A model generated the notes under the pieces. It ran no database searches. It had not been told where the DNA came from and worked only from the letters and a program-made list of their open reading frames with translations. A stretch of DNA of 45,500 bases from Sphingobacteriaceae bacterium (GTDB lineage Bacteria > Bacteroidota > Bacteroidia > B-17B0 > Aurantibacillaceae), in the NCBI GenBank assembly GCA_947453445.1, contig CANGGP010000023.1:1-45500 (forward strand). The letters are read 5' to 3'. A program made the translations under genes and the position numbers. This document shows positions 25,937 through 26,702 of this stretch, piece by piece (position 1 is the first letter of the stretch; each line of letters opens with the position of its first letter).

Positions 25937-26265
25937 AGTCGTAGTCTATTAATATTGAATTCTGATTATTTGATTAATTATAAAACGAAAAGAAAGCATG
26001 AAAATTACCTTGTCGTTTTTATTGTTGATGCTTTTGAGGTGAAGGCATCTCATTTAAACGTTAACGTCATATTTCAACAGCTTTGTTTCACTTTATTAGA
26101 CCAAGCATTACTGAATTGGTTTAAAAGAGAAAAAATATTTTACAAATTATACTGTAGTTCAATCGGTTTGGGTTTTAAAAACGGCTTTTCAAATACTTTG
26201 GAAAGGATTATGTCAAGTGCTCCCACCTCTACTTCTTGCCAATATTTCGACATAAACACCATAAA
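25937..26265. other. AT-rich intergenic region
   Basis: About 330 bp between the Rieske gene and the tRNA terminator. It holds no gene I can support. It contains, at 26217-26228, a 12-bp copy of the 3' end of the neighbouring tRNA (gtgctcccacct on the plus strand), 126 bp from the tRNA's own copy. Confidence 0.4.
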
Positions 26266-26295: not shown

Positions 26296-26343
26296 GTCGT
26301 GCTTTCGCACTCGCTCGCTCAAAATCTCACCGGGCTTTTGATG

Positions 26344-26417
26344 TGCTCCCACCTGGGCTCGAACCAGGGACCCTCAGATTATGAGTCTGATGCTCTAACC
26401 GGCTGAGCTATAGGAGC
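26344..26417 (-). tRNA. tRNA with anticodon CAT (elongator Met, or Ile2 after modification)
   Basis: A complete 74-nt cloverleaf on the minus strand. Acceptor stem GCTCCTA pairs with TGGGAGC (one wobble), D-stem GCTC/GAGC, anticodon stem TCAGA/TCTGA with loop CTCATAA, T-stem CCTGG/CCAGG with loop TTCGAGC, and discriminator A; no CCA is encoded. The anticodon is at 26381-26383. The anticodon stem lacks the three G-C pairs of initiator tRNA. The CAT anticodon cannot tell Met from lysidine-modified Ile2. Confidence 0.95.
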
Positions 26418-26432
26418 GCGGTTAATTTTTTT

Positions 26433-26528
26433 CTTCCGATAACCTTGGAAGAACCAGGGACCCTCAGTCCCGATAACTATCGGGAGAGTCTGATGCTCTA
26501 GCCGGCTGAGTTCCGATAGCTATCGGAA
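26433..26528 (-). pseudogene. Decayed tRNA copy 1, interrupted by three palindromes
   Basis: Pieces of the intact tRNA reappear: gaaccagggaccctcag, gagtctgatgctcta and ccggctgag (plus strand). Each loop or junction region is replaced by a CCGATAG-type palindrome: a decayed copy in the T-arm (26433-26451), tcccgataactatcggga in place of the anticodon loop (26468-26485), and the perfect 18-bp ttccgatagctatcggaa at the acceptor/D-arm junction (26511-26528). It cannot be a working tRNA because the anticodon is gone. Confidence 0.75.
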
Positions 26529-26643
26529 GAGCGCGGTTAATTTTTTTCTTCCGATAACCTTGGAAGAACCAGGGACCCTCGGTGCCGATAAAATCGGGAG
26601 AGGCTACTGCTCTAAATAATTGGTTACCAATTTATTTTGTTTC
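26529..26643 (-). pseudogene. Decayed tRNA copy 2 (tandem, 115-bp period)
   Basis: Starts 115 bp after the equivalent point of copy 1 (gagcgcggttaattttttt at 26414 and 26529). The first 50 bp are identical to copy 1, including the decayed palindrome at 26548-26566; then the match fades through ccctcggtgccgataaaatcggg (short stem ccgat/atcgg at 26585-26597) and gctctaaataattgg. It ends about 60 bp before the HAD gene. Confidence 0.65.
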
Positions 26644-26702
26644 ACGCTTATTTTGTGAGCAGGGTTGCAAAAATAGATAAAGTCCCCATATTTGCAAAAT
26701 AA

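Follow-up and report, generated by a model that had tools for sequence, protein, structure and literature searches.

The window, by which we mean the whole 45,500-nucleotide stretch of DNA analysed here, carries an intact tRNA-Met(cat) gene with degenerate, hairpin-bearing tRNA copies on its 5′ side. These copies resemble the trace left by a small mobile element that is widespread in Bacteroidota. The locus is probably a degraded member of a family of GIY-YIG nuclease cassettes directed at tRNA genes in Bacteroidota, with homing as the most likely mode of action. As reconstructed from aligned sequences, the full element shows the order native tRNA 5′ half, hairpin, leader, complete tRNA, terminator, GIY-YIG ORF of ~80–110 aa, tRNA stretch, hairpin, native tRNA 3′ half and native flank. 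In the same alignments, the native tRNA gene is split at one lineage-specific site in the D, anticodon or variable/T region. Variants include loci with a 3′ relic only or a 5′ relic only, and arrays of relics or of ORF-plus-relic units. Since no ORF remains in the window, its membership rests on relic anatomy and synteny.

The tRNA-Met locus in the window

The features of the locus are collected in Table 1. It had been described in the initial annotation as two tandem copies of a tRNA with a CAT anticodon. The 115-bp unit is indeed repeated (TTCCGATAACCTTGGAAGAACCAGGGACCCTC at 26434 and 26549) and both copies are degenerate, but copy 2 amounts to about half a copy (roughly tRNA positions 20–57, with its own anticodon hairpin, CCGATAAAATCGG, at 26585–26597), and the CAT anticodon is lost from both. 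Palindromes had also been reported at the T, anticodon and acceptor/D positions of copy 1; all three sites and the perfect 18-mer were recovered, although the palindrome of the T loop is imperfect. The palindrome CCGATAGCTATCGG has two matches in the window with up to two mismatches, against 0.02 expected.

Table 1. Features of the tRNA-Met locus, in window coordinates
Feature	Position	Strand	Content, location or basis
Intact tRNA-Met(cat)	26343..26417	-	ARAGORN; Rfam RF00005, 69.8 bits
Leader separating intact tRNA from copy 1	26418..26433	-	GCGGTTAATTTTTTTC on +; again at 26533-26548; sequence, alignment
5′ relic copy 1	26434..26532	-	tRNA 1-4, hairpin, 11-35, hairpin, 41-57, imperfect hairpin
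Perfect 18-bp palindrome TTCCGATAGCTATCGGAA, copy 1	26511..26528		acceptor/D-arm junction
Palindrome TCCCGATAACTATCGGGA, copy 1	26468..26485		takes the place of tRNA 36-40 (anticodon loop)
Imperfect palindrome TTCCGATAACCTTGGAA, copy 1	26434..26450		T loop; again in copy 2 at 26549-26565
5′ relic copy 2 (worn)	26549..26616	-	tRNA-like stretch; near the position of the native tRNA in relatives
Putative native tRNA promoter element TATTTTTG	26668..26675	-	5′ of all relics; motif shared upstream of tRNA-Met in relatives
3′ relic stub AGGTGGGAGCAC, the tRNA 3′ end, 12 nt	26217..26228	-	~115 nt past intact tRNA

On the native upstream side, homology of the window to its relatives ends at about 26662. 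From this end the distance is 244 nt to the intact tRNA in the window versus 16–30 nt to tRNA position 1 in three relatives (L107, L097 and L091), so the relics occupy the gap. The Bacteroidota −7 promoter consensus is TAnnTTTG. In the window, the relics and the intact tRNA seem to share the putative native promoter. We read the intact tRNA-Met(cat) as the putative rescue copy of the element. The breakpoints of the anticodon hairpin in copy 1 are identical to those in G003, G009, G021 and G028. Plain tandem duplication followed by decay was set aside because identical hairpin breakpoints recur in other genomes.

Between the intact tRNA and the 3′ stub there is no GIY-YIG ORF, and contig C23 has no PF01541 match among the matches listed. 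An Rfam scan of the window gave RF00005 alone at the gathering score, and no group I intron. The 3′ stubs at L088, L090 and L107 are longer than that of the window. A further kind of relic, TGGC.AGAA.T..(hairpin)..AGCCCAGGTGGGAGCAC, was observed downstream of tRNA-Met at the same three loci and at 26217–26240 of the window; it perhaps derives from a lineage with a T-loop site.

Altered tRNA copies elsewhere in the genome

The neighbourhoods of all 32 full-scoring tRNAs of the genome were compared with the tRNAs themselves. Altered copies were detected at five of the 32: tRNA-Met of the window, Arg(tct), Arg(ccg), Ser(gga) and an initiator-like Met on contig C144. A GIY-YIG ORF lies just 3′ of the tRNA at Arg(tct), Arg(ccg) and Ser(gga). 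On C144 the cassette is cut off by the contig end, with only 20 residues present (83% identity with L207 across 18), and the rest of it is probably on C131. A sixth relic, of Leu(caa), opens contig C6, where it stands after the C-terminal part of a GIY-YIG ORF that shares 62% identity with the Leu(tag) ORFs of L096 (E 4e-16). The intact Leu(caa) is found close to the C113 contig end, and we infer a join between C113 and C6.

Several irregular structures were seen around these tRNAs. At the end of C113 (L061:1659–1796), an ORF begins like a GIY-YIG nuclease (MASVYILYSK) and then turns into GATCAATCTCAAAAGTTG; only about ten residues resemble the GIY-YIG start. This may perhaps be a repeat inserted in a nuclease gene and breaking the contig, and the GATCAATCTCAAAAGTTG stretch also occurs 3′ of tRNA-Val in L308. 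Downstream of the Arg(ccg) relic (L055:1200–1700) there is a repeat containing ACATTTGGCATT and GTCCCTCCGGGACCATTGTAAATC at intervals of ~180 bp. At L060:1290–1420, a broken GIY-YIG start (PF01541 21 bits, below the cut-off) comes after a second 3′ end of Ser(gga); by its sequence, this would represent the remains of a tandem cassette.

Association of GIY-YIG nucleases with tRNA genes

A GIY-YIG domain was confirmed in all three ORFs tested (PF01541, E 4.5e-16, 3.7e-16 and 5.1e-12). Alignment A1 has invariant Y, G, R and E columns, as expected for a GIY-YIG active site, and we take these columns to have the corresponding active-site roles. PF01541 matches were present in at least 59 of 60 genomes. 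The ORF sample comprised, among the matches listed, most short ORFs of the genus and some of those of the class. Of 129 distinct GIY-YIG ORFs, 45 are followed within 400 nt on the 3′ side by a tRNA or a fragment of one, compared with none of 131 shuffled segments. When only loci chosen by their nuclease were considered, a tRNA or fragment lay within 400 nt 3′ of the stop in 36 of 117 distinct short ORFs, a same-strand tRNA lay within 400 nt upstream in 26 of 117, and 40 of 109 loci had at least one of the two.

A tree was built from 122 GIY-YIG ORFs taken from 131 rows after long or short ORFs had been dropped; it has few columns and many open forks. All 53 rows labelled by hand as tRNA-linked, some of them from loci chosen by tRNA, fall into one half of the tree (53 of 62 rows), and among the nine unlabelled rows of this half at least five more adjoin a tRNA or relic (L145, L197, L201 and both rows of L152). 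None of the 60 rows in the other half has a tRNA within these limits; one on a very long branch (L190) just misses, with a tRNA-Ser 436 nt upstream. Separate groups were formed by the nucleases of Val (anticodon site), Asp (40<>52) and Arg(tct), the last with one stray Arg(cct) row. Leu(tag) falls inside the Met-e group, and Met-i is made up of two groups and a single row. A perfect arm of at least 7 was found around the ORF 3′ end (−40 to +110) in 36 of 55 tRNA-linked ORFs versus 7 of 63 others, with four of the 122 tree rows omitted from this count for lack of sequence.

One subclade (L171, L177 and L178, with L195 and L219 in the same clade) lies 140–164 nt from tRNA-Phe, -Met and -Arg. Members at two separate tRNAs of G030 show no differences over the aligned region; judged by this identity, the subclade apparently moves between tRNAs.

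Hairpins replace fixed tRNA segments

Unrelated hairpins are found at different tRNA types: CCGATAGCTATCGG, TCCGCC..GGCGGA, CCCTTCC..GGAAGGG, TCTCGTCAC..GTGACGAGA and GC-rich units of 40 nt. In each case the hairpin replaces a fixed segment of the tRNA, which is the same across genomes for a given tRNA type and tracks the GIY-YIG lineage. The Met-e hairpin is placed at 35<>41 in the window and in G003, G009, G021 and G028. At Met-i, six loci have the hairpin at 36<>47, and the two kinds of stem (TCCGCC.. and CCCTTCC..) match the two nuclease groups; thus, two nuclease lineages use a common site with separate stems. The Val hairpin takes the place of the whole anticodon arm (28<>46) and the Asp hairpin lies at 40<>52, each in several genomes. 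For tRNA-Val, two nuclease lineages correspond to two sites, 28<>46 and 53<>59. Four Val-lineage nucleases (L235, L255, L259 and L281) are located at tRNA-Arg(tct), where the hairpin in the anticodon arm is the same or similar.

Ordinary stems of intact-looking tRNAs (L145, L197, L201, L204, L205, L208-1354 and the second row of L222) were not counted as inserts in this map, nor were the doubtful cases L165 (second row), L199 and L203. The mapping of replaced segments gave no hairpin in WIN_c2 or in the two C12_up rows. Relics of tRNA-Val with a replaced anticodon arm are called tRNA-Glu or tRNA-Cys by ARAGORN (L166 and L155).

Covariation was analysed for the Val hairpin. From 80 loci, 66 hairpins were obtained, of which 53 passed the flank filter and 50 (49 distinct) were retained; L236, L294 and L295 were left out, as their coordinates pointed to another copy. 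The rows were picked for having a hairpin and are therefore 100% paired by construction, so the information is carried by two-sided changes. We counted 24 such changes (cells) in the 49 distinct rows, a number that is inflated by relatedness and was reached in none of 500 shuffles. Pairing drops when the alignment is slid. Cruder measures were reached by 11 (pairs) and 10 (types) of 500 shuffles. Covariation in short palindromes can also arise without selection, through template-switch correction.

Empty and filled sites

Comparison with relatives, which the initial annotation had proposed, was decisive and yielded an empty/filled pair, the only one that is resolved on both sides. In G018 the site is empty and tRNA-Val stands alone. 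G020 matches it upstream at 95.9% over 905 nt, up to position 28 of tRNA-Val. After this position come hairpin TCCCGACTAAAAGTCGGGA, a leader, a complete tRNA-Val, a terminator, a GIY-YIG ORF, a tRNA stretch and hairpin TCCCGACTAAAGTCGGGA, beyond which the native tRNA continues from position 46 to its end and into the native terminator, with 85% identity to G018 over 1,168 nt. The insert is hairpin-ended and ~0.4 kb long. The split point of the native tRNA-Val coincides exactly with the hairpins, and both junctions are marked by similar ones. A hairpin has taken the place of the split site in each native half, but the inner tRNA-Val is identical to the empty allele of G018; the inner copy of tRNA-Met is likewise identical. 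This pair favours the opposite of the idea that a tandem duplication had protected the functional copy: here the relics represent the native tRNA, and it is the intact one that arrived with the element.

Empty sites with a lone tRNA-Met are also found in several relatives. In the T-loop lineage, the sequence 3′ of the G003 relic is 95.3% identical to empty G017 over 129 nt, starting at tRNA position 58; a different contig of G003 carries a further tRNA-Val, which is intact and similarly flanked.

These junctions also bear on the possibility that the hairpins are the functional ends of the element. The GIY-YIG protein would then recognise and nick the hairpin as a folded single strand or cruciform, in the manner of a REP/RAYT or IS200-type transposase rather than of a homing nuclease, and the tRNA would be the preferred landing place. 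Such a role would agree with the covariation of the hairpin, with its presence at both junctions, in G020 as well as in 15 named loci, and with the same or a similar hairpin at the four loci where the lineage sits at another tRNA. The identity of the intact tRNA to the empty allele would also be easier to understand if the tRNA sequence were not the substrate. However, stems differ between lineages at one and the same position of Met-i, few copies of the palindrome lie outside tRNA relics, and GIY-YIG proteins of such size are not known to act as transposases. We therefore consider hairpin-directed movement unlikely.

Relics can be multiplied upstream of the intact tRNA, with two in G006 and ten in G001, the latter with a period of 89 bp. 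The G001 array (L315, near 2,150,500, − strand, ~600–1,500) consists of ten head-to-tail 89-bp units, each comprising the 5′ half of tRNA-Val, a hairpin and a leader, before one intact tRNA-Val. It looks like the product of repeated out-of-register repair. A mirrored order, 5′ relic–ORF–intact tRNA, was found at Arg(cct) and Ser(gga).

The ORF often ends within the relic, at the stop TAG of TAGCTC, so that its C terminus is read from the relic. This arrangement could point to a functional RNA, either a tRNA-like structure at the 3′ end of the nuclease mRNA (for stability, processing or regulation) or a decoy, with the hairpin kept for the RNA fold. Maintenance of pairing by compensatory changes, and the native promoter that relics and tRNA seem to share in the window, would be in line with such a role. 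Yet relics are also located upstream of the ORF and in ORF-less arrays (the window and G001), and their extent ranges from 12 nt to nearly full length, which makes an RNA function very unlikely as an explanation of the relics.

Genome-wide counts of the palindrome

The initial annotation had regarded the palindrome as a frequent dispersed repeat and proposed that a single such element chooses hairpin loops of DNA or RNA; tRNA relics would then merely collect it. Across the 3.72 Mb of the genome, CCGATAGCTATCGG has five exact matches, and allowing one mismatch raises the number of places to 12, compared with 0 for the reversed control. With only 12 such places, it is not highly iterated here. 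Four of the 12 are in tRNA relics (two in the window, one in C6 and one in C144), and eight are outside. The palindromes of the relics do overlap or abut the D, anticodon, variable or T regions, so their placement in or beside tRNA loops was described correctly, and this placement together with the occurrence of CCGATAGCTATCGG elsewhere in the genome speaks for a preference for loops. On the other hand, unrelated hairpins occupy one fixed site, the replaced segment is constant for each tRNA type, the hairpins are tied to one nuclease clade, and they mark both junctions of a precise insertion.

We also excised the palindrome in silico from each place and counted pairs across the junction. There was no excess at the eight non-relic places, but the four relic places showed none either, so this is a weak test (fraction of random sites with as many pairs, 0.34–0.73 at the relic places and 0.17–1.0 at the others). 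A dispersed palindrome with a loop preference was set aside on the basis of the unrelated hairpins at fixed sites, the nuclease clade and the empty/filled pair, and we regard it as very improbable. The palindromes are better explained as part of the nuclease cassette than as a dispersed repeat that seeks hairpin loops.

REP/RAYT and other bacterial palindromes are short palindromes tied to a nuclease or transposase gene; the enzyme is a tyrosine transposase, and there are many intergenic copies. In contrast, the palindromes of the cassettes are few, sit at fixed tRNA sites and go with a GIY-YIG protein, and 12 places in 3.72 Mb do not amount to a high-copy dispersed repeat. Other palindromes, CCGATGGTTATCGG and CCGATAATTATCGG, were noted in G000 at C29:120, C48:360, C96:3774 and C42:155 and 344, several of them near contig ends.

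Proposed mechanism and known systems

Based on this anatomy, we propose that the nuclease would cut the tRNA gene at the point where the relics bear a hairpin. The broken ends would recombine with the donor's two half-tRNAs, which would act as short homology arms, and the recipient would acquire the nuclease together with a ready-made tRNA that rescues the lost gene. The hairpins would stop the halves from being cut or from acting as tRNAs. Further breaks at the intact copy, followed by out-of-register repair, could give tandem relics such as the two in the window and the ten in G001. In the window, the ORF would then have been lost, leaving the relics, the tRNA and the 3′ stub.

If the nuclease cuts the bare tRNA sequence, its own rescue copy should be cut as well, because the inner tRNA does not differ from the empty allele. 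This would call for sister repair or context dependence.

Synthetic Cleave-and-Rescue elements combine a nuclease against a gene with a rescue copy of that gene in one element, and the rescue is recoded to resist cutting. The cassettes differ in being natural, bacterial and directed at tRNA. Unlike the recoded rescue, the rescue tRNA-Val is identical to its target allele in the one pair available, so sequence-based resistance of the rescue copy was not seen there. More tentatively, the cassettes may constitute a phylum-wide, natural class of cleave-and-rescue elements, in which each nuclease lineage would act on one position of one tRNA gene and bring a complete replacement tRNA. A covarying hairpin that replaces the cut site at the element ends would serve as an immunity mark, and it would travel with the nuclease to a new tRNA. 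This broader proposal is possible, though we hold it with less assurance than the assignment of the window locus.

With free-standing homing endonuclease genes (HEGs), the cassettes share a GIY-YIG catalytic domain and insertion at one site in a conserved gene with empty alleles in relatives. In contrast to a group I intron with an HEG, the split tRNA of G020 is accompanied by a complete copy; the Rfam scan for introns covered the window only. Among the top-ranked titles on broad topics in the open-access literature, we found no description of such bacterial tRNA-splitting cassettes.

One of the two closest parallels comes from fungal mitochondria, where mobile endonuclease ORFs carry a duplicated 3′ part of the host gene (atp6 in Allomyces; atp6, atp9, cox2 and nad3 in Glomus) (PMC3630166). 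As in the cassettes, an endonuclease ORF (GIY-YIG in atp9) enters a gene and brings a restoring piece, while the native piece is left downstream (PMC3630166). However, the fungal ORFs replace the C terminus of a protein gene and no junction hairpin is mentioned in the accessible part of that paper, whereas the cassettes contain a complete tRNA and hairpin-bearing native halves (PMC3630166). SegB of phages T4 and T6 is a free-standing GIY-YIG homing endonuclease (PMC13096335). It resembles the cassette nucleases in lying near tRNA genes, and it cuts within tRNA genes and drives tandem amplification; in contrast, it is phage-borne, and no split tRNA, rescue tRNA or hairpin relic is described in the accessible text (PMC13096335). 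A survey of GIY-YIG proteins places bacterial members in mobile elements, and its accessible text mentions no tRNA target (PMC1564403).

As tRNA genes are essential and conserved, they would be ideal homing targets only if the invader mends the break. The anatomy of the cassettes would allow such repair, with a nuclease, a spare tRNA and disarmed target halves in ~0.4 kb. The cassettes would also explain small GIY-YIG ORFs beside Bacteroidota tRNAs and odd pseudo-tRNAs, and they are perhaps behind some contig breaks at tRNA loci. Relics with a replaced arm are a source of false tRNA annotation. The fixed positions of the hairpins predict the cut site of each nuclease.

Distribution

A scan for Val-lineage nucleases confirmed 239 stretches, of which 80 were kept. 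A tRNA lies within 250 nt upstream at 59 of these 80 loci, and it is tRNA-Val at 54; some of the others are without upstream sequence. A 5′ relic could be tested for at 54 loci. A half-copy of the tRNA is present at 29 of these and bears a hairpin at 18, and a hairpin-bearing 5′ relic was not detected at the other 36 of the 54. Fifteen of the 18 loci with a 5′ half-copy and hairpin also have a hairpin in the 3′ relic, and L238 has none. A tblastn search of 50,697 phage records with the Val nuclease (one protein) gave no match at E 1e-5. A strict relic pattern, which represents one variant and thus gives a lower bound, occurred in 10 of 395 genomes of the phylum, the genome of the window not being among them (reversed control, 0).

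According to their titles, 76 of the 80 Val-lineage loci belong to Bacteroidota, including Pedobacter, Mucilaginibacter, Cytophaga, Winogradskyella and Marivirga. The remaining four comprise one ‘uncultured bacterium’ and three loci titled Kuenenia, Streptomyces and Actinomyces, which may be misnamed bins.
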